Position numbers and translations under genes: made by a program. Below, one piece after another: positions 12,434 through 54,940 of a DNA stretch of 64,000 nt. How positions within the stretch are numbered: the first letter of the stretch is position 1; the number at the start of each line of letters is the position of its first letter. The stretch is taken from positions 29,797,024 through 29,861,023 of the forward strand of contig CAIIXF020000006.1 in the NCBI GenBank assembly GCA_903813345.2, read 5' to 3'. Source of the DNA: Owenia fusiformis (taxonomy: Eukaryota > Annelida > Polychaeta > Sabellida > Oweniidae). The notes below the pieces were generated by a model. It had not been told where the DNA came from and made no database searches. It was given only the letters and a program-made list of their open reading frames with translations.

Positions 12434-14822
12434 GGCAGCTGGATCCTCCCTAGTAACCCAGATGAGTAGTTATATCACACCTGACACAGGTAAATGTTTG
12501 TTTTTGGTCTGCAAACTCTGAGTTGTATGGCAAACTCACTTGAATCGAAAGAAACAATTTAAACAAAGTTTTTGACGATTGAATATTATTCTGCCATTAT
12601 ATGCATTTATTGAAGAATTTTTTAAGATCAGTAAAAATAAATGTGTGCAAATATTATGAGTTTCTAATTTTTTACTCTTATTCGTTTCGTTGTAGTTATA
12701 AATCAAGCTGACATCTTGTCGTTTCCGGTTTTGGTGAGTTGGAAATATTTTTTCACATTTTCTATCTTATTTGGCACTGTTGATGTTAAGAATTAGTAAG
12801 AGAAGCGCACTTGAACACAACTATATACAGGCTAGACATATATTCTGAAATTAAAGTGTTGCAAACTTCGAATCGGTCAAAAACTGGAACTGAATATTTT
12901 TCCAAATATCTTTTGAAATTTTTATTTTTCGTGGGTGATAATAGGCCTTTGGTAATGCTATCAAATGACACTTGAATTTTATGGCGTGGATAATTCTAAT
13001 GCTAATTCATCAAGGAATGTTCTATATGATGATACTGTGCACATAGTTCGTACAGATTCAGTTATACTATATACTCTATTCTGAATTTTTTTGAAATTTG
13101 GAGTGAAAATATCCAGACTACTGTATAGACTATAAATTTTTGTTTTGAAAAACATTTGTTTACACAGGAAGTGTCATTCAAACTGGGCGTTGGAGTTGAT
13201 TAATTTGCGTCAGTCTGATTCAAAATTCTATTTAGTACTTTGAATTCAAAAAATAAGCAATCAATTGACCATATTGCAACAGTTTATGAAAAAATAGAAA
13301 CATATGTACAAGACCTAACTTTTGACTATTTTTCATCCACATTTTCATAGTCTGTATCCTTAGACTGAACACGCAATCTTATGTTCTGTCCTGTCAAAAT
13401 TGCAGAGAAGCTTTACTTCTCAACAATAAACATAACAATTCAATCAAAGTGACGCGGTGCTAGACAAAGTGTAGAGGATAACATAGTTGAAAATTACATT
13501 TTTTGCTTGAAGACATGATTGCCTTGTCGAAAACCTTCTCTAATGAATCTCATTCAAAGTCAATGTTTTAACCTTTAAAAAGCCATGTTCAGATTTTAAT
13601 TCTTTGTTGATCTATTTATTTCCATCATGAGATATAGACAAAACAAACAGAGTGGCATTTGTCTCGTTATTAAGAATACTAGAAAACCCATCATGTGTTT
13701 TCTGTTCTTCATTTGTCCCTTTCCTGTAAACATAAGACATAATAAATTACATGTATTTGAGCAAAATGTAATACTACAGTAAAACTAAAACCTGAGTTAG
13801 TGAACACATCTCCCTAGTGAACGCCTATCAAAAGTGAACATTTTTTCTCGGCAAAACCTTTTTCCCCCATTGACTCCCATGTTAAAGTACAATCCTATTG
13901 TGAACACCTACCTACTGTGAACAGTGAACATAAAATCTTGGCAAAATCAATAGAATTATTGGATCAGATATAAGATTTCTCATGGATTTTCTGCAACTGC
14001 CTTATCAGAGTTAAGCAGTTAATGTTAATATTACCTGACTAAATTACATGTAAAGATGTTGATCTCTTCTTTTATTGAAACAGGTGTGACTAATTATAAT
14101 TCTTAATATGCTTTGTTTTTATAATACAGGAAAAGTGTCTAGCCTTGATTGCTTTAAAGATAATCTGGTTAATTATCATTATAATTACCTCTATCTGCTA
14201 AGTCCCAATTTAATCTTTTTCTCATCCCCATCAATTTAAAAAACAGATTGAAATAAAAAATATAATGATCACCCTTAATTGACTCTGTCATGTCCTTTAA
14301 TTAATTTAATTACGTCCTTTAACTGAGTCAAATGTGTCAAGGATTCAACTATATAAAGGATCATCTTGATGAGATTATAAAGAATTATAAAGAGATTGAA
14401 ATTTGACATGAAAAAGATGAACCATTAAGATGACAGTCAATCTAAAATATGTCAATTTATATAACACTTAACAAAACAAGACCTTAAAGCTTAAATGTCA
14501 TGGATAATCATAGGTAGAAAATAGAATTTAAATTGATTATCCCCTCTTCTCTTTTAGCCTTGTTGAATAACTGGTCTCTAGATAATACGGCAAAATGCCT
14601 CGAAATCAAATTCTTACTTTAGTGAACACCAACCAACAGTGAACGTTTTTCGGCAAAAAAATGTTCACTATACACAGGTTTTACTGTAGTGCTTTATATT
14701 GTACTTCCTTTCAAGAGTACTTTTTACATTTGTTCGACTTCACTTCTTAAAAAAGAGCTTCACCTTCAGTTTGTAACCAGACCTTTTTTGTGTGCAGGGT
14801 ATTCAAAGGACACTACCTCACC
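12434..14822. other. Divergent intergenic spacer between SLC5 (-) and SCFD2 (+)
   Basis: Contains both gene starts' upstream regions. A 910-bp MITE-like element occupies 13777-14686. An acceptor-like TTTTTTGTGTGCAG at 14783-14796 lies just before the SCFD2 ATG, so SCFD2 probably has an upstream non-coding exon that I cannot place. No other coding potential was seen. Confidence 0.55.
13777..14686. mobile_element. 910-bp MITE-like element, family A, with TA target duplication
   Basis: The left end CAGTAAAACTAAAACCTG and inverted right end CAGTAAAACCTGTGTATAG are flanked by TA (13775-13776 and 14687-14688). Next to the ends are AGTGAAC/GAACACC motifs shared with the other family copies. No transposase reading frame is visible. 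It is probably a non-autonomous pogo/Tc1-type element and occupies more than a third of the shared spacer. Confidence 0.65.
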
Positions 14823-17800
14823 ATGGGAGACCTATCCAATGCTGTAAGGGACACTTTGAGAGATGTGCTTCTTAAAGTCAAGAAAGCTGTTGTCTTCATC
14901 GATGATTCAAGTGCAGAGTGTCTTCATTGGAATTTGGGAGTCATAGAACTTTTCAAGGCCGGAGCATTGGCAGTGAAGCAGTTCTCATCATTTGAGGTAA
15001 TGGTCATATTACTCATCATTTGAGGTAATGGTCATATTACTCATCATTTGAGGTAATGGTCATATTACTCATCATTTGAGGTAATGGTCATATTACTCAT
15101 CATTTGAGGTAATGGTCATATTACTAAGTTTTTTCAATTGATGGTACTAACAGTATATTTGACTTTCAACAATTCAGATGCTTTTTTTTAATTCTCACAT
15201 AAATATGTGTTTTACTTTAATCAATTTAAAATCTTGTTTCAAACCGCTTAGGTTTTATCTCATGTTGATAATGTAAAATTTATTTTTGAGGAAATTTTGG
15301 GGAAAACACAGCTTTGATGTTACTGTGTGTTTTTGGATACTGATTATTGAACAAATACTGATTATTGAACAAATGTTGTTGTACATTTATTCAACATTCA
15401 CATAGATTTGTCAATTGTTAAATTATTTGTTTGTACATTTGTATATAAATGAAATTTTGATTTAATACATATACTATGAGTGTCAAGTACATAAACTTTA
15501 CTAGGAAATTGCTTTCATAAGTGCAACATGTTTTACAATATGTACATTTAAAATTCTAGAGTGGTGGAAAAGAAGCTAAGAAGGCTGTGTTCCTAATCAG
15601 CTCACCTCTAGAAGGAACAGCATTAGACATTCTCCATGACATTCTCAGTGCCAGTAGTTTCCAATATGTAATTGTCATAGTAACAGGAAGTGTTACGCTA
15701 CAAGGATTCTGTCGCTATGGCAGCAGCCTAGGAGACAAGGAGGAAGCTGAGTTATTTCCAGATTATCAGGACCAATTACTAGAATGGATGGGAAATATGG
15801 TATGTTTGATATGGAAGAGAAACCCCCCTCTTAATTGAACAGCTGTCAATATGAAAGCTCTTTTTGGTTCCATTTTTACATCACCGCCAAAAGTGGTGAC
15901 ATATTGTTATAGTCTCCAACTTATTTGTGGATGGTGTTCAGCAGTCAGTACCTGTAGCAAATTCTTTCAACTTAAAATAACTAAAAAACTAAAGAATTAT
16001 TCTTGCTTCCCTCTCACCCATAATTCTATCCTCTCATAGACTTTGATTTAAAGTGTTTATTATTGTATTGTAGAATTACACAGCAGAAGTCCTACACAGA
16101 CCTATAAACATAGCACCGGTGACCAAGGAATTGTTCCTGTTACCATCTCACTCACAGTTGTATCCTCTCTTAGACACTGATCTACCTCATATAGTGAAAA
16201 CACAGTAAGTTTCATATAGTTAAATAAATAAATATGTTAATCAAGGAAATAGTAGAAGTTTGATTGTTACATAAAAGATCATGTCTGTGTATCTCAAGGT
16301 TAATATATACTTGATTATTTCCATGCTGTGATATTTGTTCTTTCATTGGTCAATCAGATACCATGTGACTAAAAATATATACAGGTATTCCATTAGATAG
16401 CCCTGCTTAGAAAACATTTGTAAAGTGTATTCCCCGGCAATGACGTCATTTTGATCGAATAAATAGTGATATTCACTTAAAATGACGTCACATCACTTAA
16501 TTCCCGGGAATTATGGCAAATTGCCATAATTGGAAATAATAATTATTCTGGAAATTCCGAATCTAATTTTCATCTGTAATGGTATGATGGAGATCTTGAA
16601 TTTCAAGCAATTTTGGATCTATAGGCAAACATGTTGAAGTATGTTGAAACAAAACGTCATATCATATCAATATTTTGTACATCTTGTGGATAATGGGGAA
16701 ATAATGAAACAAATATTCATCTCCATAAAATTCAATATTTGAATTGTATCTTGATAATCATATTGATACGTTTAAATGGTGGAATGTTTTTCTTTTTTAA
16801 TCAGAGAGAAGTCAGATGGAAAGGCTGTGGTAAAGAGCTTAGAAGATGTAGAACATAGTCATCTACCAAAGGACTACCTCATACAACTAAGGGTAATTCT
16901 TTTCTTCTTTCTCTTTCTAATGTGGTGTTGCAGACATCCATTGAACTAGTTTATACATGCAATGTAAATAACATTAATGATAACTATTTTGTCTCCATCA
17001 GCAAATATCCCTCCATTGGATTCTGACAAAGTCTAAAAACCATTTAGTTATTAAATTCTTAATGCATGTCTCATGATGGTAGATTTATGTTTTGTAGAGT
17101 CTAGTTGATTCAGTAAATGGTTTGCTGGAGATTCTAAAGGTTCAAGAAGAGTGTTACTATATTGGTAACACCAGCAAATTGGTTGCATCTTCACTAGCAG
17201 CCTACCAGCCAGCCAAAAACAGGAGAAAGGTAAGGCTCTTAACATATATAGCCAGCCAAAACCAGAAGAAAGGTACTTTTAACATATAGCATGTCACGAC
17301 TTAAGATTTTTGCTATAGGTAGCGTATGTTGAAGAATATATGTGTAGAAATAATTGGGTTTATACAAATAGTATAAATATAATACAAGATAAATGAAATG
17401 CTAAATAAAAGATCCTACAGTCATTCAAATTATTTTCACATTTTCTTGTGGATCAATAATGGTTTATTATCCTCAATCCACTCATAGCTAGGCAAGGTAT
17501 GTCCGATTCCAGCCGATCCGAACAGAGTTTTCACATTATGAACAGTGCATGAAATATCAATAACACATGCAAGGTCATTAGTTTAACATCTGTTGTCTTG
17601 GTGATGAATGGATTGGATTGGATTTCACATTGGATTTGATGAGTTGCCAACTTGACCCTTGCAAAAAAATTCATTGAAAATGTTTTCTTTTAGTGATTTC
17701 GTTCCTTTAAGATGATTTTTAAGAAAAAAATTTGCTATGTGTGAAAAGAATTTAAGCCCAAGACTCACTGCATTGTAGCTGCTTCATTCCACTCCGGCGA

Positions 17801-31300: not shown

Positions 31301-33762
31301 GTTCAAATGATGCAGTTGATTCATTCCAGCCTAATATGGCATCTCCATCGTCAGATAGCAGTCAGAGAATCAACCAATCTCTCGAGAAATTAAACATACC
31401 TGATTGGTTGAGGTATTCCAATGTGAAACATTATGCATCTACTGGATTTATACTTGGTACTGACAGGAAGGACGCTGGTCTTAGCTCCGGGAGAAGTACC
31501 CCAACTATACCCAATGAGCCGACCCCTAGTGGACCTAGACCTGTAATCATTCAACGTAGTGCCTCTTCAGTAAGTCGCTCGAACTATATGAGACCCCCTG
31601 TAAAGTACGCTAGCCTTACGCCCTCAAAATTCGAACTCCCTAGTGCAAAACTGAGGAGAAGTACCCCCAAAGAGCTACTCCCGATTAAAATGAAGCCTTT
31701 TAAAGCCATTGTTACGAAAGCCCCAAATATACAAGCTAAGACCAGTGAACCGTACGAATCCGAGCCGCCTAGTGAACCACAGGAAACGGGTTCATTTGGT
31801 AGAATGGTTAGATCACGACCTATCATGGGACTCTCTCAGTATACATTGAAAGAGGTTGATGAGAAAGATGGCAGCACTGCGCCCAAGCCTGTCATTAGAG
31901 ACAATGAAGAAATCCCTGTCATACCTAAGTATTCAAAGAACAGAAATGAATTTAAAGATGGCAATACTGTACATAACCCAGTTATCATACCAAAAGGAAA
32001 CGGAACTGTTTCTCCAAATAGGGTCGAAAGTCGACAACCCAATGACAGTACAACCGATCCGATAATACATGTAAAGAATAGTAGGCAATCTACTGGATCA
32101 AACGAGAATACAGTCCAGAAGTCATCGGTCCAGTTGAATTTGAATGGAAATAGGAGTTTAAACAATACACCTCCATCTCCCAGACTGTCTGTGAGAAAGG
32201 TACAGCAGTCTCCTCAAGAACAAAGTCCAAGAAAGGAGCATTTCAATGCCGTCCCACAAATTCTTATAAATGACAAAAATCATACGATTTCAAGCACCCT
32301 AAATCATGATCGCCAAGAAAGAAAAACTAAAAAGATGAATAGTTCGTCTGATGCGACATCTGACTTAGATCCATCTAAATCCTCCATCCAGTCAGATCAC
32401 AAAACCACACCAAAGCAAACTGGTCGAGATGTTTTTCCTGTTCTTACACTCGACGACTCTCCTCCACAAAATAAGACCTCTCGTCCTAATAAGCCTGATC
32501 TCCACGTGGAACTTACTGAAACAACATTGGATAAAGTATTTGTCAAAAAGCCTCCACAGGAAACTGATTCTTCCCTGGAGGCCATTTTGGACGGACTTCT
32601 TGACCTTTCTTCGCCTAAGACTGAGACTCCACCTGGAGATGGAAATGTAAGTTTTTCATTTGATGACCCAAATGAAAAAGGGGAGGGAGCAGAAGCACAG
32701 ATTAATGACTTATATGATTTTAATTTCTTGAATTCTACTGCGGATGTTTCATCGTCTGATGATGAAATTGCGAAATTATTTGAAGATGAAAATGTTGAAA
32801 TCAAGTGTAGAAACACCAAATGTGGAAAGACAGCGAAACTTGTAGAGGCTAGAGCCAGTTATAAGTCTTGCCATCAGTGTTATACATACTACTGCAGTCG
32901 GGAATGCAGAAAAAAACATTGGCCAAGACACAAGAAAAAATGTCTCCAGAGTAAACTTGGAAGTGCTTGCAAACATATTATCACATCCATAAGAAAGAAT
33001 GCAGAGCAATTTTCTCGGATTGCCAGGACTGGATTTCTATCGAAAGGCAGGGGTTATGTCCAAATTATTTTTGATGATATCGAGTCAACAGAACAAATTA
33101 TAAACAACAATGCACACGGTGCTTCGTTGGCTATTGCCACATATGTCTCCCTGCGAGATCTCGAAGAGAGTTCGATGGTGACCAGCGAGACCACACATGC
33201 CAAGCACATTGAGACTCTCACGCAACAATGTAAAGCATACAATCCTGAATTCAAGTTTGTTATTAATGTCGGCATTCAACCATGCGTTTCAGACGCAGGT
33301 TCAACGCACACTTCATCACTGTCCAATGACTCTATGTCTTTGTCTTCTGGAGGTTTGGGAATGGTCCAGAAGTCAGCAAAAGTCAACTTAAGCTCAGCTC
33401 AAATAAGACCTCGACCTAAGCCAGACAGAGAAACCCTCATTCTTACAGCTGTACCCGGTGCTGAGATAACCGAAAACATGGACTTGAGAAAAGCGCGGGA
33501 GATTTGTTTCATCCATATCCAACGGAAGTTACGTCAGAGGGGAGTAAGTTTACGACATCAATACCCGGATATTTACAGCAGATTGTGTGCCTACGTTGAC
33601 ACAAATGAACCGTTTACACCTATAGATCTGTATCCAGTTGACAAACGAACTGGCAAACGGTTTGTGTGTCTCATTATGCCAAACTCTGACCCAGAATTAG
33701 ACTGGTTAATCGATAGCGATTTACTTGATGAACTTGGATTATCAAATATGGGCCTGCAATGA
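28327..33762 (+). CDS. Large single-exon MYND zinc-finger protein, probably AJM1-like (apical junction component)
   Basis: One uninterrupted frame of 1811 codons. A hydrophobic segment at about residues 13-31 (YILATVATIITVVLSW) followed by KDGSRKKQQ suggests a membrane anchor with the bulk in the cytoplasm. Residues of about 35-1480 are Ser/Asn/Asp/Glu-rich and look disordered. A MYND-type finger spans 1494-1539: C1494, C1499, then C1515-x2-C1518-x4-C1523-x3-C1527-x7-H1535-x3-C1539. A well-structured C-terminal region follows, ending at RTGKRFVCLIMPNSDPELDW and LLDELGLSNMG. From memory, the finger plus tail resemble the apical junction protein AJM1 (C. elegans AJM-1, human AJM1); I am moderately confident and could not align them. 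The coding region has no introns, unlike its neighbours. Start ATG is in a weak context. Confidence 0.9.
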   Translation: MPRLTGENLFERYILATVATIITVVLSWRLLYSWKDGSRKKQQLTAASKENQGVPVGCAISVNNNTCEDDISLSGEECSDNVNSEYDNTIIQRHHVRTDQVNESHIEPAGVVCGVDVSPCTVETIDNSPDVARVSDGNYNRRSTNGKYVCCSEPNVSLLISEGSNINPIQQCNSNIQQREVDTKSRDNYSTKVTSSEQGYVTSAIKSVDGVTNIVLPDEYITRGNDNVSLSNDHQDTFSSRKCQTVLYPQYTIEHTTNKRCQAGCKKQVLNSKMEVIRRGDQGSCDNNGPKDILTGGHLDLRTEASDRIIAFLSDSDGDESRSSSDVSDAETIIEIKPNEKSDVVSECDTADAEDRSDQNCDDLEIVQEMDELSNEGENCSDIYADAPLSNIAEADQALTKFVFVQQSHTRTLLCEQLTVTSVNHEAPSIEYEPETGNDVDDTRGNQNVVDLKPETNDAVDNAVSGSIITSKDDDRHLLGLSFKPPNTYDARNETETTRSDIASSCSIKLNNDVDVHNECIAADTENIQQNESVAPSDDLSESNSNFISKMSLDAVRETSPIKTENAVINSSIDVVNNDSKMPVTRSIENINSSISEETEVANKQENQNNPTKGTVKQANSPCHNTFINIHNNAEPILQANISNKKSSQPLKSDLNGKPSITDDYIEGKQSSFPINSCSPTSEQAGYDTVLLKEISSGSSCSNNENSNKTDNRIEEVAIRLQCNVTSANTSHLNHSTKEYHKTRELYTQKGTLSESPTIEPDIESESNAKNDEKENIFAKDNSCKTAHLNANISEMILDKSKSNNVKDKTIDQNTTEVQPRNKMQTQYKSLNEENKYEDKHLYLESDGKSTMGHNQPGNYHNSNVNNTTNIRTLDRKVDTSKNARPQSLEYSPGKAISLDNLAKTHSRAGITPSSPSVAPKGFFYDRRSCTSLLETDLDTMVTTAVPLVTKTDMDDILSAPPMRASSMVNLRSTRSDTKPNRPSSVLSMPYRSNDAVDSFQPNMASPSSDSSQRINQSLEKLNIPDWLRYSNVKHYASTGFILGTDRKDAGLSSGRSTPTIPNEPTPSGPRPVIIQRSASSVSRSNYMRPPVKYASLTPSKFELPSAKLRRSTPKELLPIKMKPFKAIVTKAPNIQAKTSEPYESEPPSEPQETGSFGRMVRSRPIMGLSQYTLKEVDEKDGSTAPKPVIRDNEEIPVIPKYSKNRNEFKDGNTVHNPVIIPKGNGTVSPNRVESRQPNDSTTDPIIHVKNSRQSTGSNENTVQKSSVQLNLNGNRSLNNTPPSPRLSVRKVQQSPQEQSPRKEHFNAVPQILINDKNHTISSTLNHDRQERKTKKMNSSSDATSDLDPSKSSIQSDHKTTPKQTGRDVFPVLTLDDSPPQNKTSRPNKPDLHVELTETTLDKVFVKKPPQETDSSLEAILDGLLDLSSPKTETPPGDGNVSFSFDDPNEKGEGAEAQINDLYDFNFLNSTADVSSSDDEIAKLFEDENVEIKCRNTKCGKTAKLVEARASYKSCHQCYTYYCSRECRKKHWPRHKKKCLQSKLGSACKHIITSIRKNAEQFSRIARTGFLSKGRGYVQIIFDDIESTEQIINNNAHGASLAIATYVSLRDLEESSMVTSETTHAKHIETLTQQCKAYNPEFKFVINVGIQPCVSDAGSTHTSSLSNDSMSLSSGGLGMVQKSAKVNLSSAQIRPRPKPDRETLILTAVPGAEITENMDLRKAREICFIHIQRKLRQRGVSLRHQYPDIYSRLCAYVDTNEPFTPIDLYPVDKRTGKRFVCLIMPNSDPELDWLIDSDLLDELGLSNMGLQ

Positions 33763-40655: not shown

Positions 40656-43600
40656 ATGGGAAGAAGAGATTATGATAAGCAGATTATTAAAGTAGTTTAT
40701 TCTACAGGGATTTTTGTAGCGTTTCTTTGCTGCGTAGGAATAATCAAAAGCATCGCCCCGTACAATGACGGGCTACAGTCGCAGTTCCACCACTCGGAAG
40801 GAACGCACAGCGAGGCGTTTGCATGGAACTCACGAAGTCTTTTACAAGCTAAAAGATCAGAGGTAAATACAAAAAAGTGATTTCTTGTAAGCAAATCCAA
40901 AAATGTGTTATTTCTTTTTCGAGTTCTTTTCTAGCAGTTTTTTAGCGATGTCTAATTGTCGAGAAAAAATTACCCCCCCCCCCCTCCCTCCCATAACTCA
41001 GACGAGCCTGTTTTAGTCAGCCTATTTTAGCTTATTAGTGTACAGTATATATTGTTACTACTTAAAATGTTATTAAGCGCCATGCCGCCATTATTGTAAA
41101 TGGCTATCAATTTTGATTTACGTTACTTATTTGTAACCGCATGGACTCCAAATAGTTTAGCATCCAAGTAATTTTTTAAGCTATATGTAGGCATTTATAC
41201 AGATGCAATCATAACGTTCCATTTTTTGTCTTGTTACACAATTAAGATATAAGGGGCGATCTTTAAATTTCGCAAGTTACTCTAGATCTATCTCAGCAAA
41301 TCATATCGTGAAACATAATTGTTGAAATATGTATGCGCAAGTGTCAACGGGGAAATACAAAAATGATTACATAACTCAAGAAAAATAAAACACTAAGAGC
41401 ACACCACTTATAAGGAAAACAAACCCAAACTATCCCAAGTCAGTATCCAAAGGGAAAAGAAGCAATGTATTATACCCCTCCCCCACCATTCAACTACGAT
41501 ATCACAATCCGAGACCGTAACACCAAGAAACATTTCATTAATACCGAAGTCATCATGATACTTGTTGAAGAATTACTCTAAAATTGAAAGTTTTGAATAA
41601 TCATAACTTCAAAAATAATAGTAGTTAATATAGTATACATTCAAGATAAAGCGTTCAGTCTTAAATGATGTAGGACAGACAAAATTCATTTTCGAAATCC
41701 ATATGCGTATCAAAGGGTCAATATCCATCCGCAAAGACACCATAATCCATAAAACACAATGTTTCACAATGGTCATCAGGGGAAATCTATGGCTGGTTTT
41801 AGATTTTTGTTTCTCAACCATATTTCCCCAATTTTCAGTAATATGGATTATTCCTGATAACACTCAGGACGATAGGCAGCTCCTTTTGGCACCATTATTT
41901 TTATTTATATACATCATCGAAATGACAATATCTCGGACAATAGTTTTACACCAAATTTTGACAAGTTGTTTAAATGTGATAATCCTTATTAAAGATTGTA
42001 TTTCAATTTAAAGTATAGGTCCCGGGGTATAGGTAATTTGCTGTTTTCCCCTAAACTTTATTTATCCGTCACCAGGCCAACATTTTCCTCTTCACGTCGG
42101 GAAAAGGCTAAGGCGACTTCATTAAAAAGAGCTTAAACGTATGGTTGTTAAAGTATCCCAAGTCTTTCTTCTTGGTACATATTAGTAAAAATCAAATTCA
42201 TATTTTACTATTGTCTGGGTGAATCAAAGGGTAGTGTTCACTGCTCTGTCGTTTAGTAAGGGCTCATATCCCTATTATTACGTTTTATAACAGGTTAAGC
42301 ACAATTCCCTCTCCATGGTTATGCTAAGTGCGATGTAGTAATTGAAGCAAGCCATGATCATTCAAGGTATTACAACTTGTAATGCTATTAAATCATGGTC
42401 GGGTTTAAAAATCTTGGAACTAGTTTTGAGCAAACTTCAATGTTTAATCTCATATTGTACAACAAATTATTTTACCATATAAGCTGGTTCAAAATGTTTT
42501 GCGAATGAAATAAACTTAAACAAAAGGCAAAGTATTGGGCGTTCTCCTATTACCATTATCAATGGTTTGACATCGATATTCAAATTTCTGGCAGTCTTAA
42601 GAGAAAAAATATTTGAAAAATATGTTTCTGTAAATCTTTGCCGCAACTGGCTTTGCCCATTTTATCTGAATAGGGAATGTAGGCAACCTTGTTTAGCGCC
42701 ATTGTGCACTTGAATGTAACTTTCTTATGACTCTACCACTTGATCATTGCTTTCCCCTATACAAATTTACTTTAGAATTCCAAAGTCCTCGATGCCCTCC
42801 ACAAATTCTTTAAATAACAGGACTATTGATAATAATAACATTCTCTAAGGACTTGATAAGCTTAAACGGTTGCATGATCAAGTTGTGGTATTATTACCTT
42901 ACACTATTGACACACCGTACTAGTATTATCTCGGGTAAAGACGTGATTTAGAGGACGCTGTCCACTATTTCATCTTCTATGCCCATCTGACTAATTCCAT
43001 TGAGTAATACATGTATAATACTGATCGGTTTTGCTCGTATCTAATATCATATATTTCATTCTGATGTTTTTATCTAATGCTAAGATTAAGACTTAAACAT
43101 GTTCAAGAGTTTAAAACGATGCTTTGTGTAAAATATGTTTTAGGTCATATGACCTCACATGCTACAAGAGTATGTCAAACGAGCTTTTATTTTCAATAAC
43201 AAATTTCGAAAATGGCAATGTACCTTTCGCCAGAGTTTGCCAGTATTTCAGTACGTTTGTTTTAGGTTCAAACAATAACTGGGAAAGACATTTAAGTCAG
43301 TGTCTATTTGGATGATCGATTATCAGTAACAAACATGTCCACGATTTTCTCAGGAACAAGGCAATCTCTCTAAGGAATCGATGGATGTTGTTATCGTTGC
43401 CTCTCCTAAAATGTATCAGAAAGTTTTTAACAAGTTTAAACGGACAAAAACAACCAGTAACGTATTTTACAATACTTTTTGTGTTATAGCCAATGCCATG
43501 CATGACGGTTAAACCGTGTCTTTATACATCATTACATGTAGCTCCTGATGTTTTTCAGTGCAGGGACGTTCACAATTATGACATCAGTCAGTCATGCGAG

Positions 43601-46600
43601 TTCGTCAGCAACGCTCCAGCCTGTAAGATGGTGGAAGGTTTCATAAACTACATTGATGTTATCTATTGCAAATTTCCCAACAACCTTATCCCATTGGGAA
43701 TGGTTATATTGGTAAGTTCATCTACTTATACCTATTGCTAAGCAAGACGTCCATCTGTCTATCTAAAAACCAAACCTCTAATTTCGCTTGAATGAATGAA
43801 AATATATGGCCCACGTTCCAAATACAGATATCTAAAATCCTTTTTGTTATGGTCTCCGGTTGTTATCGAACAAACGACCAGTGCCATCTAACCGGAGTGC
43901 GTTTCTACATATGCCTCAACATAAGACCTAGTTCAATTCTTTGCCTCTTTGTTTCCAGTTCATCTGGTGGATGTTTATATTCATAGGACTTGCCATAACT
44001 GCTGATGACTTGTGAGTACAAAACATGTTCAGAATATGTATATTATGAAACGTATGAAGTGTGGAGTATGTCAAATAATTATTCCCTGTCATATTCCTCA
44101 CTCTCTGATTGGTCTATGTCTTACACGTGACTAGGAAACAAGAAGCCATATTCGCCGCCTGTGAGTTCGTCCAGTGTAATCTGAACCATTCCCAGACTAG
44201 CATTTTGTGCAATGTACTTTTATACTATGTCGAATACTAGTAGATCATTCCAAGATGAAACTATGTTAATGGTGTATTCTCCTCAAATCCAAAAACCCAC
44301 TACATTTGAAACATTTGAAGTATGTCCAGATTTTGTATTACTACAGTCTCATTAAGATAAAATTGATCACTTTGATATGAAACTATATCCAAATGGTGTA
44401 TTCTCCTCAAATAAAAAATCCCATTACAACTTGAAACATTTGAAGTATGTCCAGATTTTGTATTACTACAGTCTCATTAAGATAAAATTGATCACTTTGA
44501 TATGAAACTATATCCAAATGGTGTATTCTCCTCAAATAAAAAATCCCATTACAATTTGAAACATTTGAAGTATCTCCAGATTTTGTATAACTACAATCTC
44601 ATTAAAATAAATTGGATAATTTCAAGAGGAATGTATGTCCAAATGTATGTCCATGTGGTGTATTCTCCTCAATAAGAAGAAGATAATTGCAAGTTGAAAA
44701 GTTTGAATATGTCCAAATGTTGTTTTACATCTTATTAAATTAAAATAGATAATTACAAGATAAAATAATGTTAATAAAATATCAATTACTTACTTAATTC
44801 CTCTACTTTCAAATCAAAATATATTCTTTAAGTTTGCACTTTCAAGTTAAATGGATATAGATACTTGACCAATTCTTACAAGGGTAAGTGTTTTGATAAT
44901 AACGTAAGAGGTGAAGAAAGAATTCTTATAAGTACGTAGCTATTTATCAATTCGAAGTAAATTATTAGAAGTGGTCTCATAGGATACATTTAATTGAGTA
45001 TTACTAATTAAGGCACAACATACGTCATAGTAGACCCTAGATAGCTCGTCCAATAATAAACAGATTCTGAAATCTCAGGCAGGGAACATGTGATTTTAAG
45101 TTTGGATTGGAAAACTTTTTTTCTGTAGCAGGCCTACCGACTTTATACATACACATTATTATACATGTACATTCTGACAATGCACGTGTGAATTTATTTT
45201 ACAATTAATGTATGTTTATTTTATATTTCAGTTTTTGTCCCGATCTCGCTGTTATATCAGATACCCTTGGATTGAGCCCCAATGTAGCCGTATCCTTTTG
45301 TAGAACTAGTGCAAGGTGGTTAATCTTGTTTATTTATTTGCACTCACTTGTATGATAAACAATATATCAAACATTGTCAAAAGTGGTTTCTGAAACGCTA
45401 TCAGCAGTGTTATTACAGCAGTGAATTATTTATGTTGGCAGTACTTAATCAGGGACATTCGAATGATAAATTATTTTTTCATCATAAGGTGTGACTTAAT
45501 TTATAGTTTCTAATCAAAATATTTCATCATAAATAATAATAAATAAAAATAAGATTCCAATGTTTAGTGGTAATAGTAGAATCAATAGTCAAGTGGTTGT
45601 TCGTTGAGGTACACACAACTCACGTCAACGGCAGTATCCAGTAACCCAAAATGGCCACTAAGCTGTTTATTATTCCTTAATCAGGAATAGGGTGTTACAT
45701 TTCTTGCATTTGGAAATGGCGCTGCTGATATTTTCTCGGCATTCGCCGCCTTTCAGGCAACATCAGGAGGAGATGCTGGTTTAGCTGTCGGTGGATTATT
45801 TGGTAAGGTACAGTTCTGATCTATGTTTTTTCCATATAACATGTTAACCCTTCTATGAAACTATATGTATATGATCAGAATTGGTCGCAATAAAGAAATA
45901 TATATATATCAGATATTTAACTCAATGCGCCAAATGTTGCTTTTTGAGTAGTTGTCACAACGTACCCTCATCTCATTATATACAACATATACATTATTCT
46001 TATTATAGGCGCTGGGGTGTTTGTCACCACAATAGTTGCAGGATCGATCGCACTTGTAGCACCCTTCACAGCTATGCAGCGTCCTTTGTTGAGAGATATT
46101 ATCTTCTACCTTGCTGCCCTCTATTGGACGTTTTACATTTTCTATAGAGGAGAGATTTTCCTTTGGGAAGCAATAGGTATAAACAGATTTGAAACCTTTC
46201 ATAAATAATTTCAATGCTTGTGAAAATACAATTACACTTATTGTCAAATCTAATTTCTTTTTTTTTTATTTTAGGGTTCATGGTGATGTATGTACTTTAC
46301 GTCATAGTTGTTGTTTTGTCACAGAAGACATATGATGAACAGCAGGATAGTAGAAGACGCTCTATGATGTCTGGTAATATAATGGCCTTGATTTTAATTA
46401 CTTTTATGAAGGTCTTTACTTGACCATTTTTCATAATAAAAACAAAGTCAATACATTTCAAAACTTCTGACTCTCTGGTATCACTACACACACATCACAC
46501 ATGGTAATTACCAGATTTTAAGATGAAAATTGCTCATAGTTAATCGTGTTTTTTTTTAATTTCTTAATTCATTTTCCAACATATAATACTATTTCATTGA

Positions 46601-49600
46601 CCTCACTTGTCTTTTTGGGAGATATTGCCGATTTCAATTATCTCTTTTTCGTAGACTAAAATATTTCTGAATCCATTATATCATTGTTTTGGGTGTTTGA
46701 GTCGCTTCCATGTGACCAAATGTATTTTTCTTTTAATTACCACTCAGGTGTTGAGATGAAAGGGCATCGGCCATCAATTCAACTGGAAAAGATAGACGAT
46801 GCAGCAGTTGTGAACGTACCAGAGGTCGAATCAAAGTCGACAATTTCAAAAGTTGAGGGAGAAGTTGTTAATGCATATGGTGTTGGATCACTGAGGCTTG
46901 TTCTTACACCCCTAGATTTAGATCCATCCAGCATTGATGGAAATACGAACCCAGCATTTAAGCCTGATGATGCTAAGATTGAATCCAAGGAAGAAAAGGG
47001 TAAAAATCATGATATTAGTGAAACTAAATTGAACCTAACGAAAGTAACAACAAGATGGCACAGTAGCAAAGACTAGTAAAACAAAGGTCAATTAGTTTAT
47101 TTCAAAAAACAATAAAATGTTAGAACTTTTGAAGTTATGTGCAAGTTTTATTTGTTCTGTGAACTTCAATATATTTGCAGCTGAATATATGCAGATAGAT
47201 GTCAATGCTAATTCAGAAAAAACTGATGTACAATATGAGACATCAAACTTGGAAAAGGGAATCTTTACAGTTGGAGACAAAACAGGTTTGCTTTTCATAC
47301 AAAGTTCAATGAAATATCCATGTTCAAAACTTCAAATATAATTTTTCATAATCAAACGGAAAATGAAATTGAAAATGAGAAATAAAAAGATTAAAAGATT
47401 ACAATTCTTCTTATCGTACCTTTATGAACAGAAAATGGCAAACTACAGAAAGAAACGGATGATGGTACTAGTGAAAAAGATGAAAAAATAGTCGAAGCAG
47501 TGAGTAAAGATCCCAATGAAGATTTGAAAAATAACGAATCAGTTCGAAAAATCGTAAGACAAACAAGCCAAGGTAAGAGGGCTTTTCTTTTTTATCGTGC
47601 ATATAAAATAAAGTGTTTTTGCTGTATGCATGTAAATTATTGTATATATATATATAATAGTAATCTGTACCTAGCGGCCTTGTCTTGCCCAAGTCAGTAT
47701 TATCTTTCATTTATCTCGATTTTCAATTAATATACCTAAACTTTCAAAAGATCGACAACGACTTAGGAAAGGCTACTACCTGCTTTGGTGCCCAATTCGG
47801 AACCATGCACAGGGAAAACACTTCCAGAAAAAGTGATATAGTTTATACATACTCCAATAAATATTATATTTATAAAGCATATTAACCAAAAAATATTTCT
47901 GCTTTCATGATTCCTATTACCTGTCTCTCAGTTTTAATACAATTTTATTTTTAGTTTCTTTCAACCTGGATGCTATGAATACTGAAGGTATGCAGGAAGG
48001 TACTTACAAAAGGAGATACAGTTTAGCTACTGAAATTTCTGTTATTGGTAAGTTGGTAAATTAATAAAACAAATATTAGCATAAATCAAACAGTTGTCAA
48101 AAATCATACATCTTCAGAAAGGATAGGTATCGATATGGTGAACTGAATTCAACAATGTTTTTTCTCTAAACCAATTATTGAAAACATTCTGTAAAAAACA
48201 CGGTCCTTTATGTAATGTTGTACTGATTGGCAACAATTTAATGCAAAAATTATTTAGATATATTTTATATAAAGTTTTTACATGTACTTGACCCCAAGGG
48301 GTGTGAATGTACTTGAAGAATAAATAAATATATTTTATATAACTGTTTTTGTTAACATTTTTTGTTTTTTAGTGCAATTGTCTTTTGTTCCTTTCTACCA
48401 ATTCTTGAGAATGAAATAAAATGTCTTTCCGAACCCTGTTGGAACAAAATAGCATATACAACATTTTTACCTCTCAATATAATAGTTATACAAAGGAAAC
48501 TTTGGTTGATTTCACAAAAAGTATGCAAAAACTCCCAAAATAGATAACAATTAAGATAAACATTTTATTTCATTAGCAAGATACTTTTTTTTAAATCAAC
48601 CAAACTTTCCTTTGTACAATTACAATATTGAGTTTATGTCGTTTTGTTCCTCTGAGGTTCGGATAGATGTTTCATTCCGAACATATTATACCAAGAACGA
48701 AAGAAGTGGCTGATGTGTTTTCTAAAACAATATAGAGAAAAGTATATAATATAAATTTCAAATTACAATGTTACCATCCAAAAGATGACAATTAAATTGA
48801 CGATATGTAAAATTTTCAGAATGTTTTGATGATTGGTTTAAGAGGAACGCGTGTTCAAAATGTTCACCATATCGATACCACTCCTTTGTACTATATTACA
48901 TATATATGGCTCAGTGGATGCCTATTCATTGCAGAGGATCTGGAAAAGAGACGAATTAAAGAAGAAGAGGCCAAACTTGTTGTAGAAAACCCAATTAAAG
49001 AGTTCTTGTATGCTTTATCACCCATAAGAATAGACGCATGGTCTGAAATGAGATGGTTTATTAAAGCATATGAAGTGTTTAAGGTATGGCCTTTAAAAGG
49101 TAGACTACAGCATTTGAAGCAATATTATCAGAAACTCAAAATCAAGTCATTTGCATGTGCATGTCCCTTAAAATTGTATTAAAGTACAGCTACTACTTGT
49201 ATTTGTATTTTAAACTAATAATTTGCAACAAAATAAATTGAATATACATCAGAACATAATAATAAATTATTCCATTTTTATTCGTTATTTGTCTTCAGTC
49301 ACCTATCCAACTTTTATTGAATGCAACTATTCCTTGTGTGAGTTACGCTGAGAAAAACAACAACTGGAATAGACATGTGAGCTGTCTCAATTGTGTATTG
49401 GCACCTTCTCTTCCTATATTAGGATTTAAATGTAAGAGTCTAATCTCTTTTTCATACTTGTTAACTCTACAATCCTATGTAAAATCCTCTGATTATAATA
49501 TATAAACTGATCACTATAAATAAATGAATAAATAGATAAACTAAACTATATTAAGCTGCCATATTGTATGTCGATAACTGCAGACTATTCTAAGTCATGT

Positions 49601-52600
49601 TAGAGTGGTCATGTCATTTTATGGATTCTTTATATCATGTTTATTAAAATGTCGTGTAAACATTTTTAAACGCTGTAACGAAGTATTATAAAATTCATAT
49701 ATGTATTATTTGTATTATATATATCTAGTGTATGGTACAATGCTTGGTGGTGTGTTCCCACTTCTTGTTCTTACCCTTCTCATTGGGATCGCTCTTGCTG
49801 CTCTCGTCTTTTTCACATCAAGAAATGAAAAACCACCAAAATACCACTGGGTAATCATATTTTTTAATGATAAGTATCATTAGAATTAAATTCTGTGTCT
49901 TTATTCAGCAAGGATTGCAGCGAACACAAAAAAAACGTTTAGTATATTTTTTTATTATAGCTAATGACGTAAAAGGCTATTGCAAGTTATTTATTTGTGT
50001 GTATTTCAAAAATAAATTAGTGTCCATATAAGTAATTTTGGAATGTAGGAAATTAAATCAATATTCATGTTTGTTTGTAGGCATTTGCTTTCCTTGGATT
50101 TGTTGTTGCCATTGTTTGGATCTATGTGATGGCCAATGAGATTGTAAATGTATTAAAGGTAAAATATATCATAATTAAATTTTTAGTGAAAGAGGGTCAA
50201 AAGAAGGTGTTATTTGTTTAAGTGTTTGCATATAACATTGTAAAGGGGGACGTGTCGGGAATAGGATAGAATAACATTACGATAGCCTACCAGTTACTAA
50301 GATGATTAAATCGGATTAAATGAACAAAGGGCAATTTGACAGACTCAGTTTGACATGCATTTCTAAGTTTTGCTAAGTGAGTTACTTTGCATCAAATGGA
50401 TTTTACCGTTAAAGGCTCGACGATTTTTTCAAGATGACTTTTGACTCCTGATGACCTTTATAGATAATCTCTTAAAGTGTGCATACTAGACATGTAAAGA
50501 ACTATGCCAGTATGTGAACTATTAAATTGACCAAGTTTAATTAAAAATAAAGTATTACCAGATAATAACGAAAAGTGAAAATTTAACATTTGACCTTCAG
50601 TTCCGCATACATTTTTGGCACTCATCATTCAAGTATCACGCTTCAGCATACTTCCTAGCTTGGAAATGTAGCGTACATAAAATAGTGAGTGGGATATCAA
50701 ATAAAAATACGATTTGAAATAAAGAAAAAAAATCCCTGAAAATATGATCTTTTGCTCTAAGTACCACGCTCATTTTTCTACAAGGTATCTCTTATCACAT
50801 TTGGTAAATTACATCATCTCAGGTAAGTAAGTTTTAAAATAAGCGCTATGGAACAAATTCAATCAACAATTTTAAAATTGTTTGTGAATGTTGTTCCGCG
50901 AATAAATACCGGAATAATAAATACAGTACTTTTTTACATAAACTTATCTTCCCAACAGAGGCCCAGGCCGTGCTCCTAAAAATATTTTAAATATATCAAT
51001 GGCTATAGAGTTTATGATTAACACCCCAGTCACATTTGTCGTACGGAGGGCGTACGTCGACCGCATTAAATCAGTGTATTTCTGCGGCGAGCGTAGGAGA
51101 GCGTAGGAAAACTACGTACGTACGTACGGCGTATCCAGTTCTTTGATAAAAAATGATAGACCGCACGGCGGCCGTGGGAAATGTGACTGGGGTGTTACAC
51201 AAATTACCATAGAAATTTAGAACTTTGATTTTCATATATTTTAGGCGACAATTTCAAATGTATATTTCTTTCATAGTTTGATACTAACCATTTATTCATT
51301 CAAGCTCATCATACTGGAATACATTTTAATAACGTTTGAAATCGTTCCTTTTTATCATTATTCAAAAATTATGTTTTTAAATAAACTGAAACTCACTAAA
51401 TTAACTTTGCAACGAGCGAACGTCGGCAAGGAGGCCACGTATTTCACCCTGACACTCCCACCTTTCAAATGGTATATTTGGACGTCTAATATTGTATGAT
51501 TTGTTTTTCATTAGTGCCTTTGAAGCTCTCGTTTGCTCAGCTATTATGAGTATTAAGCATTGAAGTAAACGGTCTAATCGGTAATTTTTGAATATTTAAA
51601 TTTTTTCTGATCACATTATCTCAATTAAGTTATAAGTAGCAGGTAATTACTTTGTTACAAAATCCCTCTTCATGAGATTAAAATATCGTAAACCACAATT
51701 TTACTAAGAATTCGTAACCCAGCATATCGTACATACCACTTTAGCATATTTATATTTTGTATTAAGATATCACATGACGTAAGAATAACGAAGTTACATA
51801 TTACAGATGTTTGGCGTAGTATTGAACATAAGTGACGCCATCTTGGGTCTAACACTGCTGGCATGGGGTAACAGTGTAGCAGGTTAGTGCCACAAAACGA
51901 ATTTTTACACTATCAGTATCATCGAAATTATTTTGAATATCTATTGATAATGTAATGGGTAATACAAACAGTCGAAATAGTAGATAATGAAGATTTGATG
52001 AACTGAAGTGCATAAGTATAATTAACGTTTATAAATATAAGTTTATTGTGTCTGACTTCGTTATTTTCGTATTCATCAAACATTACTAGATATCTAAGTT
52101 GATAATAACATTTATTTGCAGACTTCATTGCTGACATGTCCATGGCCAGAATGGGCCGGCAACGTACAGGGTTTACCGCCTGTTTTGGTGGAACACTTTT
52201 TAGTATCCTTCTACAATTAATGGGGCCATCACCTAAAATAATCACGAGCTAATCTAATTGATGATGATTTTTTAGATACAAATCAATGGAATCAAAAAAC
52301 GAATGGAAATTAGTGAATTGGCATCTTAATGAGTCTTTGATGAACCAAATAACATAAATCATTGATTTGATAAACTTGATAACATTATAGGAATATCCTA
52401 TGGTTTTGAAAAAATATCATTTATATCCATGAGTGGATATTGATATCTTTACGAATGAACGCAGCGAATGAGTGAAGATATTGATATCCATGAGTGGATA
52501 TAATTGATATTTCTGAAAAACCATAGGATTGTCCGTTTATCCCATGGGAAATCTTAACCCAGCGAAAAAAATGGTAAACTTTTTTTTTAAATTTCGAAAA

Positions 52601-54940
52601 AAGTTTTTGAAAATTTTTTTTTAAGGAAAACATTTTTGAAAAAAGATTTTGAAGGTTTCAAAAATTTTGAAGGAAAAAATCTAAAAAAAATTTTAAGAAA
52701 ATCTTGAAAAAACATTTTTAGAAAAAAATTTGCCAAAAAACCATCGAATATCACTTTTGAAACCATCGAATATCACTTTTTGAGAAGTGATATTCGATGG
52801 TTTGAGAAGTGATATTCGATGGTTTGGGGATTTTTTTGCTAAAATATGATATCTTGATCCACATATCAAATATATCTTCACTTGATATTCGATATATATC
52901 CTTGTAACCATTGGATAAAAATCCTTAACTTGTAACTAGACTTATTGCTTGGAGTTGGAGTACCGTTTACATTGAGAGTCGCTCGAGAGGGCCGAGTGTT
53001 CGTAAGTACACGGGACAAATATGCATATTTTAGTTTGAATATGATCAAGATTGAAAATATTGTGTTACAACTTACGTACAGTTCATAATGATGTATTTTG
53101 TGTAACTGTACAAATCCAATAATACTGTGTGATTGTCTTCCAGCTAACTTATAGTATGCAACAAGTTATCCAATAATACAGCGTTATTGTCTTCCAGCTA
53201 ACTTATAGTATGCAACAAGTTATCCAATAATACAGCGTTATTGTCTTCCAGCTAACTTATAGTATGCAACAAGTTATCCAATAATACAGCGTTATTGTCT
53301 TCCAGCTAACTTATAGTATGCAACAAGTTATCCAATAATACAGCGTTATTGTCTTCCAGCTAACTTATAGTATGCAACAAGTTATCCAATAATACAGCGT
53401 TATTGTCTTCCAGCTAACTTATAGTATGCAACAAGTTATCCAATAATACAGCGTTATTGTCTTCCAGCTAACTTATAGTATGCAACAAGTTATCCAATAA
53501 TACAGCGTTATTGTCTTCCAGCTAACTTATAGTATGCAACAAGTTATCCAATAATACAGCGTTATTGTCTTCCAGCTAACTTATAGTATGCAACAAGTTA
53601 TCCAATAATACAGCGTTATTGTCTTCCAGCTAACTTATAGTATGCAACAAGTTATCCAATAATACAGCGTTATTGTCTTCCAGCTAACTTATAGTATGCA
53701 ACAAGTTATCCAATAATACAGCGTTATTGTCTTCCAGCTAACTTATAGTATGCAACAAGTTATCCAATAATACAGCGTTATTGTCTTCCAGCTAACTTAT
53801 AGTATGCAACAAGTTATCCAATAATACAGCGTTATTGTCTTCCAGCTAACTTATAGTATGCAACAAGTTATCCAATAATACAGCGTTATTGTCTTCCAGC
53901 TAACTTATAGTATGCAACAAGTTATCCAATAATACAGCGTTATTGTCTTCCAGCTAACTTATAGTATGCAACAAGTTATCCAATAATACAGCGTTATTGT
54001 CTTCCAGCTAACTTATAGTATGCAACAAGTTATCCAATAATACAGCGTGATTGTCTTCCAGCTAACTTATAGTATGCAACAAGTTATCCAATAATACAGC
54101 GTTATTGTCTTCCAGCTAACTTATAGTATGCAACAAGTTATCCAATAATACAGCGTTATTGTCTTCCAGCTAACTTATAGTATGCAACAAGTTATCCAAT
54201 AATACAGCGTTATTGTCTTCCAGCTAACTTATAGTATGCAACAAGTTATCCAATAATACAGCGTTATTGTCTTCCAGCTAACTTATAGTATGCAACAAGT
54301 TATCCAATAATACAGCGTTATTGTCTTCCAGCTAACTTATAGTATGCAACAAGTTATCCAATAATACAGCGTTATTGTCTTCCAGCTAACTTATAGTATG
54401 CAACAGATTATCCTCACCGCAGCTATGGCAGGCAGTCTTCTCATCACTTTCGTCTCCATGCCTCTTATCTTCAACTTTAAGGTAAATGCTTTCATTGCTT
54501 TTCATTTGTCCAAAAATAAATAGAATTTCTTGTCTACTTATCACTGTAAGTTTGGATTTGTTTATCTCAGGTACAACTCCCAATTAAGGTGATAAAAAAG
54601 CTTCTCACTAGAAAACAATTGAATGGTCATTTGTTATTTTTTAAATTACTTCACAAAGTTTCTCATTAAATGATTACAACAAGGAAATTTTCATTAAAAA
54701 TTATGTAAGACACAAGAGTATAGCATTTTTCAAAAATGTGAGTTTGAATTTACCTTCATATTATCAATCAGTTATTCCCATCAATATGTACCAAAGGTGT
54801 TCGCTAATATGTACTGCTGTTTTCTGTTCTAGGTGGGCAGAGCGTATGGAATTGTTATGGTAGTCTTTTACGTCGCCTTCCTAATTATTGCTATTCTCGC
54901 TGAGGCCGGGGTCATCAAAGGAGAGCTTAGGAGAATATGA
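40656..54940 (+). CDS. NCLX-type Na+(Li+)/Ca2+ exchanger (SLC8B1 family), complete, 20 exons
   Basis: Cation/Ca2+ exchanger of the NCLX family; in vertebrates it extrudes mitochondrial Ca2+. Exons: 40656-40862, 43559-43711, 43959-44011, 45232-45289, 45691-45802, 46009-46176, 46275-46373, 46748-46999, 47181-47285, 47432-47572, 47955-48047, 48935-49083, 49299-49431, 49729-49850, 50081-50158, 51807-51882, 52122-52202, 52940-53001, 54386-54481, 54833-54940. The sum is 2346 nt, 781 aa. An N-terminal hydrophobic segment is followed by a Cys-rich lumenal region. The alpha-1 repeat (VTFLAFGNGAADIFSAF, about residue 160) and alpha-2 repeat (LTLLAWGNSVADFIADMSMA, then TACFGGTLFN, about residue 655) are clear. 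The hydrophilic loop between them (exons 8-12) is much longer than in human NCLX (about 584 aa in all). Exon 19's acceptor lies in a 24-copy minisatellite. Localisation is not evident from sequence. Confidence 0.95.
44230..44740 (+). repeat. About four tandem 125-bp units in NCLX intron 3
   Basis: GGTGTATTCTCCTCAA recurs at 44271, 44395, 44520 and about 44656, giving a period of 124-125 bp, then one longer interval. The middle units are almost identical; the outer ones are diverged. Non-coding satellite-like repeat. Confidence 0.85.
51019..51197. mobile_element. 179-bp MITE with perfect 19-bp TIRs in NCLX intron 15
   Basis: Begins TAACACCCCAGTCACATTT and ends with its exact inverse. The interior is GC-richer than the intron, with CGTACG runs (TACGTACGTACGTACGG). 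No coding capacity. Superfamily unknown. Confidence 0.75.
52385..52530. repeat. Inverted repeat in NCLX intron 17
   Basis: CCTATGGTTTTG...TATCCATGAGTGGATAT is matched inverted by ATATCCATGAGTGGATAT...CAAAACCATAGG-like sequence, giving a near-complete palindrome with a short loop. It resembles a small MITE. Confidence 0.6.
52738..52825. repeat. Doubled palindrome of a 25-bp unit in NCLX intron 17
   Basis: AAACCATCGAATATCACTTT occurs twice in tandem and is followed by two inverted copies, AAGTGATATTCGATGGTTT. The whole 88 bp can form a long perfect hairpin. Just upstream is a purine-rich A/T stretch of AAAAATTTTT type (52560-52735). Confidence 0.85.
53114..54406 (+). repeat. 54-bp minisatellite carrying 24 copies of the NCLX exon 19 splice acceptor
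   Basis: Each unit holds the polypyrimidine tract and acceptor ATTGTCTTCCAG followed by the exon start CTAACTTATAGTATGCAACA. The exon-start motif occurs first at 53144 and last at 54386, exactly 23 periods of 54 bp apart. Units are nearly identical. The first reads ACTGTGTGATTG and one near 54047 reads ACAGCGTGATTG instead of ACAGCGTTATTG. Only the last copy runs into the true exon (CAACAGATTATCC). In any earlier copy the frame meets TAA eleven codons in. Confidence 0.97.

Follow-up and report, generated by a model that had tools for sequence, protein, structure and literature searches.

Twenty-four tandem copies of one 3' splice site in an NCLX gene of the annelid Owenia fusiformis

Introduction

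Which acceptor is used when a minisatellite has placed 24 near-identical 3' splice sites in front of a single exon is the question raised by a gene of Owenia fusiformis encoding a mitochondrial Na+/Ca2+ exchanger-like protein (NCLX). Identical rival splice sites are indistinguishable by their own sequence and, therefore, position and exon context must decide between them; in this respect, the locus is unusually clean and lends itself naturally to testing how splice sites are chosen. Minisatellites of a comparable kind, the so-called mirages, have been described in amphioxus for Adh3, the globin genes BflGb6 and BflGb9 and troponin C, together with a similar one in PGBD5 (PMC3087553, PMC3902484). 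According to the available text of these reports, they do not disturb regular splicing (PMC3087553, PMC3902484), and it has been proposed that new introns can arise from them (PMC3087553). Our search of the literature on repeats at splice sites, in which the gene name was not a search term, returned no report of the NCLX array. The array is probably a tolerated mirage, of which the exon-proximal acceptor would be used as a result of exon definition, mis-spliced RNA being destroyed and the array itself being near neutral and no dedicated switch.

The NCLX gene and its conserved junction

The gene is located in the window, i.e., the whole stretch of 64,000 nucleotides analysed here, which has a GC content of 33-35%; that of the amphioxus genome is about 41%, and the low value speaks against an amphioxus origin. 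COX1, GFP-family and molluscan haemocyanin searches yielded no match, the latter two being run without a positive control. The model comprises 20 coding exons (Table 1), with one frame open throughout and 19 GT-AG introns; exon borders were set by eye and the model is restricted to the coding exons, the 5' UTR exons being left out. The product of exons 16-20 is homologous to NCLX/SLC8B1 over the C-terminal exchanger repeat, as indicated by its matches with PDB NCLX chains (9z4i, E 5.3e-28; 9ps1, E 7.6e-28) and with the Pfam family Na_Ca_ex (E 6.9e-21). The assignment to NCLX made in the preliminary description is thus borne out, and its numbering of the exon as 19 is consistent with the 20-exon model. 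Another array, 125 bp x 2.8, occurs in intron 3 at 44268-44611, away from any splice site. Elsewhere in the window, a frame of 1839 codons, open from stop to stop, extends over 28243-33762 and contains in its C-terminal third a cysteine-rich motif, possibly a MYND finger.

Three NCLX paralogous loci occur in the genome. In all three, intron 18 is placed before the same codon, in phase 0, and ends with an ordinary acceptor at a junction free of any array, the intron measuring 125, 501 and 182 nt in L003, L004 and L005, respectively. Because intron position and phase are common to the three paralogues, the array multiplies a real and conserved acceptor, and the exon 18/19 junction is both real and old.

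Anatomy of the array

Depending on the reading, the array extends over 53114-54413 as delimited by TRF (24.1 copies of period 54, matching at 99% without indels; score 2558) or over 53114-54409, which is filled by 24 whole units, each consisting of 30 nt of intron end followed by 24 nt of exon head. On 20 dinucleotide shuffles of the 22,049 neighbouring bases, TRF yielded a single repeat of score 60 at a period of at least 20, the 19 other shuffles giving nothing at the threshold of 50. The acceptor CCAG/CTAACTTATAG (CCAG/CTAAC, the slash marking the border) occurs in all 24 units, with the first exon base at 53144 + 54k and the last of them at 54386. The units identical to the consensus number 21 of 24; copies 1 and 24 deviate from it as listed in Table 1, and copy 18 shows one difference in its intron part. 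The 24-copy array of 54 bp multiplying the 3' splice site of exon 19, as well as its high homogeneity, had been correctly recognised in the preliminary description, which also placed an exon head in each unit but estimated it at about 20 nt instead of 24. When a 31-bp core of the unit was searched throughout the 498-Mb assembly with up to two mismatches (assembly gaps cannot match), 24 places were recovered, all of them in the NCLX array, and the same search detected neither further unit copies nor a second haplotype in the assembly.

Two sequence features of the amphioxus mirages are present: the unit crosses the exon-intron border and carries exon sequence, and the splice signal is repeated with one authentic copy beside the exon body. 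On these two features, the NCLX array belongs to this kind of minisatellite, of which it is a striking case.

Near-perfect repeats are error-prone, and the real copy number might be much smaller than, or different from, that of the assembly. However, a length of 1.3 kb falls within the length of long reads, the first and last copies are distinct, copy 18 possesses a private variant, and other arrays of this genome consist of diverged copies. An assembly artefact consequently appears very improbable, even taking into account that the published draft of one amphioxus array appeared to be mis-assembled (PMC3087553).

The unit also contains a 7-bp hairpin, CAATAATACAGCGTTATTG, located just above the polypyrimidine stretch (53171-53189, and at the same place in later units), with a z of -4.6 when folded alone; its perfect form is absent from copies 1 and 18.

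Table 1. Location and main characteristics of the NCLX gene features and of the arrays found at splice junctions (window positions unless a contig is given; the slash marks an exon-intron border).
Feature	Position	Strand	Characteristics
NCLX (mitochondrial Na+/Ca2+ exchanger-like) coding region	40656..54940	+	20 coding exons, 782 aa
NCLX exon 18	52940..53001	+	donor TTC/gtaagt
NCLX array	53114..54409	+	54-bp x 24 minisatellite; intron 18 3' end and first 24 nt of exon 19; TRF and unit-by-unit reading
Copy 1	53114..53167	+	3 differences, in the intron part; acceptor score 0.65 bits, the lowest but one among the 24
Copy 24	54356..54409	+	authentic acceptor, exon from 54386; 2 differences, in the exon part (CAGATT for CAAGTT)
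NCLX exon 19	54386..54481	+	96 nt, both borders in phase 0; alignment with PDB NCLX chains
NCLX exon 20	54833..54940	+	last coding exon, contains the stop; gene model
Exon with multiplied donor	14798..14996	+	ends ...VKQFSSFE; joins 15560-15799 in frame, no stop
Second junction array in the window	14984..15125	+	28 bp x 5.1, 100% match, unit TTTGAG/GTAATG (donor); TRF
Paralogue A (L003/L006), exon 12	C12:9690100-9702600		27-bp x 1.9 array starting at (abutting) the donor
Paralogue A, exon 13	C12:9690100-9702600		donor array, 38 bp x 4.0
Paralogue A, exon 14	C12:9690100-9702600		donor array, 70 bp x 3.0
Paralogue B, exon 2			donor array, 82 bp x 2.1
ABC transporter gene (L009 + L035)	C6:9936700-9942345	-	115 bp x 10.5; acceptor and start of H-loop coding sequence

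Reading frames and strength of the decoy acceptors

Exon 18 was joined in silico to each of the 102 AGs occurring from 53002 to 54440, a range that includes intron 18 and the first part of exon 19. The frame is kept up to the native stop from only two of them, the authentic 54386 and 54407, both located within copy 24, and any acceptor upstream of these therefore leads to a truncated product. From all 23 upstream array acceptors, the frame reads LTYSMQQVIQ and then meets TAA as codon 11. In this respect, the dilemma formulated in the preliminary description, namely that a stop awaits ten codons after every earlier acceptor, that the last copy alone leads into the true coding sequence, and that the spliceosome must either choose the most distal acceptor or make abortive transcripts, is reflected in the frames. 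The decoy stops are located 117 to 1,305 nt upstream of the exon 19/20 junction and, following the usual rule, stops that far before the last exon junction are expected to result in nonsense-mediated decay. A coding role of the array itself was rejected, since none of the six frames of a perfect unit is free of a stop.

Acceptors were scored with a matrix for which the gene's 18 other acceptors served as the basis, a number of sites that makes the scores rough. A value of 5.01 bits is reached in 22 of the 24 copies, copies 1 and 18 scoring 0.65 and 0.08 bits, respectively. In a leave-one-out procedure, the 18 other NCLX acceptors range from -3.2 to 11.3 bits, eight of them below 5.01, and the decoys, falling inside the range of the gene's own acceptors, are thus ordinary acceptors; of the 601 other AGs between 40657 and 53000, 25 score as high. 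The only perfect yTnAy branch-point words of the unit, CTAAC and CTTAT, belong to its exon part and precede the acceptor of the following copy by 50 and 46 nt, respectively. Copies 2-24 would accordingly each take their branch-point candidate from the preceding copy, which makes them complete 3' splice-site modules. The four GT words of each unit score between -3.3 and 4.7 bits, as compared to at least 5.0 for 15 of the 19 real donors; the array carries 3' splice sites and no donors of the ABCA7 type. Re-splicing via donor-like GT words (GTATGC, 4.7 bits; GTTATC, 0.9 bits) was also considered and discarded, these words being no better than weak real donors.

Such an array, with complete modules in copies 2-24, acceptors of identical, mid-range strength in 22 of its 24 units and a stop at codon 11 after 23 of them, could act as a rheostat, provided that the decoys capture splicing in proportion to copy number and that the unstable length of the array sets the NCLX output via unproductive splicing and decay. 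A correlation of repeat length with splicing and expression has been reported for the human ABCA7 repeat (PMC5954066). However, the length effect in ABCA7 concerns the skipping of the next exon and not the isoform retaining a repeat unit (PMC5954066), and regular splicing is reported as undisturbed in the amphioxus mirages (PMC3087553). A tuning of expression by the copy number of the array, as suggested in the preliminary description for an exchanger presumed there to be essential, is possible; a rheostat of this type is unlikely.

The decoys are transcribed first and, save copies 1 and 18, equal the authentic site in strength, two properties that would also be compatible with a damaging allele, in which most transcripts are mis-spliced and an NCLX copy heading to loss is tolerated through the three paralogous loci or through heterozygosity. 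Against this idea, all 20 modelled exons are open with GT-AG borders, and PDB NCLX is well matched in alignment by the exon 16-20 product, keeping in mind that a recent allele could still be damaging. A gene on its way to loss seems improbable.

Another way of distinguishing copy 24 from its neighbours would rely on RNA structure: the quasi-palindromic exon heads of the interior copies would pair with one another and hide the decoys, whereas the changes of copy 24 would break the pairing and leave the last acceptor open. In fact, the TAACTT...AAGTTA motif is intact in the interior units and broken in copy 24, a two-unit fold (-15.7 kcal/mol) pairs neighbouring exon heads, and the probability of a 15-nt acceptor window being entirely open is higher in copy 24 than in interior copies, by a factor of about 3 to 10. 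However, the z of the two-unit fold is just -1.26, the mean unpaired probability (about 0.55-0.58 at the smallest setting) is similar for the decoys and copy 24, copy 23, itself a decoy, exceeds copy 24 in openness under one of three settings, and giving copy 24 the letters of the interior copies in silico alters its openness by a factor of less than two. Apart from a slightly raised joint openness at the last copies, folding and local accessibility lend no support to RNA masking as the reason for site choice, and this explanation was rejected as highly improbable.

Origin and homogenisation of the array

Intron 18 measures 1384 nt, of which 142 nt would remain after subtraction of 23 units of 54 bp. 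The tetranucleotide ATCC occurs at both ends of the array (53114-53117 and 54410-54413), which fits a duplication between short repeats. In the interior copies, the intron part follows the last copy and the exon part follows copy 1, a mosaic that is the expected product of unequal exchange in a two-copy array. The array probably arose from the tandem duplication, between the two ATCC tetranucleotides, of a 54-bp segment covering the intron 18/exon 19 junction, followed by an expansion to 24 copies through unequal exchange, which would have left the authentic exon intact with 23 decoys upstream.

The interior copies encode QQV where the used exon reads QQI, and the residue at this site is V, T and V in the paralogues L003, L004 and L005. 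With V in two of three paralogues, the ancestral state seems to be that of the decoys and the derived one that of the used exon; the decoys have probably kept the older exon text, the used exon having changed later. Over the 22 interior copies (1,188 bp), a single substitution occurs, i.e., 8.4e-4 per bp (95% range 2e-5 to 4.7e-3), which indicates a recent homogenisation.

Other arrays at splice junctions of the same genome

The array had been considered to occupy an unusual place, a view that does not hold in light of the amphioxus mirages already published and of other junction-spanning arrays in this genome, one of them within the window. The latter repeats a donor (Table 1), and with any of its four decoy donors the joined stretch meets a stop at its codon 75. 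The corresponding gene resembled the Sec1 family when inspected by eye, an assignment for which Pfam and PDB gave no supporting match. Two further donor arrays and an abutting one occur in paralogue A of NCLX, and another donor array in paralogue B, exon numbers being those of the matching NCLX exons and borders being set partly by hand; no junction array was found in paralogue C (C221). Exons 19 and 20 correspond to a single exon in paralogue A.

An acceptor is repeated in an ABC transporter gene, where the acceptor of the last copy is followed by GRTVLVIAHRLST. The copies of this array have diverged, and its origin probably predates that of the NCLX array. The AG is kept in all ten copies that were located by exon text away from the acceptor, and the idea of selection against the decoy acceptors was rejected. 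Substitutions amount to 2/147 in the acceptor core versus 29/810 outside (P 0.21), a comparison biased towards conservation because the copies were chosen by their acceptor motif, and from which no signal is claimed. This array is the only junction-crossing one recognised in a sample of 25 ABC loci (79,155 bases), in which arrays were judged by eye.

Protein-kinase loci were sampled as well. Among the best 30 of 144 matches (109,080 bases, TRF), no array was seen to extend over a splice junction with exon sequence in it, and two arrays abut one, in a sample where selection by best score favours long exons with few borders; L050, L052, L060 and L063 were read by eye and the rest judged from the TRF table. 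In L052 (C11:19329697-19330146, minus strand), a gene which we take to be LATS-like, 35 units of 23 bp of the GTAAGTAATG type begin the intron (1979-2784 in gene orientation), with 12 exact GTAAGT words right after the exon, as in the human ABCA7 repeat. In L050, an array ends at an apparent acceptor, and other arrays of L050, L055 and L063 are located inside open frames.

In the bodies of the four NCLX-family genes, 4 out of 12 arrays of period at least 25 span a junction, the 27-bp array at the exon 12 donor being counted as non-spanning. Depending on the null model, 4.2 spanning arrays are expected when whole arrays are placed at random (P 0.68), and 1.6 when single units are placed (P 0.06). 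In this small sample, junction arrays look tolerated, neither clearly sought nor purged.

Comparison with known systems

The NCLX array shares with the amphioxus mirages a tandem unit placed over an exon-intron border and, with that of BflGb6 in particular, the duplication of the 3' end of an intron along with the beginning of the exon that follows (PMC3087553, PMC3902484). In the amphioxus mirages, the edges of the clusters escape homogenisation, and 5' as well as 3' borders can be duplicated (PMC3087553, PMC3902484). The differences reside in the gene and in the size of the array, which contains 24 copies, 21 of them identical, as compared to 6 and 3 in two BflGb6 haplotypes (PMC3087553, PMC3902484).

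The VNTR in intron 18 of human ABCA7 is also made of about 24 units at the border of a coding exon (23.7 x 25 bp in the reference), but its unit begins with the donor and consists of intron sequence, and its length correlates with the skipping of the next exon (PMC5954066); a frameshift isoform retaining one repeat unit accounts for about 2% (PMC5954066). A related donor-side anatomy underlies this human disease-associated repeat. Internal tandem repeats of human segmental duplications similarly occur at exon-intron borders, where they can alter splicing and form introns, but they consist on average of four 30-bp units in primate-specific paralogues (PMC2812944). The dog MCHR2 repeat was discarded as an analogue, no splice site being concerned in the available text of the report (PMC8912139). 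NAGNAG and other short tandem acceptors are, like those of NCLX, rival acceptors of one exon, but they consist of two sites spaced by 3 to about 12 nt and form no array.

Probable choice of the exon-proximal acceptor

If the NCLX array is a tolerated mirage, exon definition would pair the last acceptor with the donor of exon 19 to give an exon of 96 nt, as opposed to 150 to 1,338 nt for the decoys, and any slip to a decoy would bring in the codon-11 stop, no less than 117 nt upstream of the last exon junction, and expose the transcript to nonsense-mediated decay. The exon-proximal choice, the decay and the neutrality are the most likely interpretation of the frames and sites described above. 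The rule that would keep all the array-bearing genes working is the use of the site giving the shortest exon, i.e., the first copy at donors and the last copy at acceptors. Such a rule is what exon definition predicts, whereas an intron-wise pairing would favour the decoys. The authentic copy is indeed the first in the donor arrays and the last in the acceptor arrays, but the authentic site ends up beside the exon after any tandem duplication, and this arrangement proves nothing about site use. Support for the rule is found in published cases, namely the amphioxus mirages, in which regular splicing is reported as undisturbed (PMC3087553, PMC3902484), and the rare ABCA7 isoform with one retained unit (PMC5954066).

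The discrimination required can be estimated from a first-come model, in which each decoy is used with a chance p and the productive share equals (1-p)^23, i.e., 79% at 1%, 50% at 3%, 31% at 5% and 9% at 10%. Half of the normal output therefore requires that splicing pass over each decoy in about 97% of cases. Against a tolerated mirage stand the strength of the decoys, which are no weaker than the true site apart from copies 1 and 18, the predicted RNA accessibility, which shows no clear preference for the last copy, and the result obtained with the kinase loci.

A broader proposal, which we advance tentatively and with some doubt, is that many genes of Owenia fusiformis, an animal outside amphioxus, carry arrays at their splice junctions, both donors and acceptors, and that the spliceosome of this animal ignores up to 23 mostly equal decoys and always takes the shortest exon. 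If so, these arrays would constitute a natural titration series, from 2 to 24 copies, of exon definition among identical sites, of which NCLX would be the extreme, the other donor and acceptor arrays, with 2 to about 10 copies, providing a graded series within one genome. A second lineage beyond lancelets would, in addition, generalise the proposal that mirages give rise to new introns (PMC3087553).

A last observation concerns the acceptor at 54407, an in-frame CAACAG created by the two changes of copy 24. Its use would remove LTYSMQQ and might give a minor isoform.
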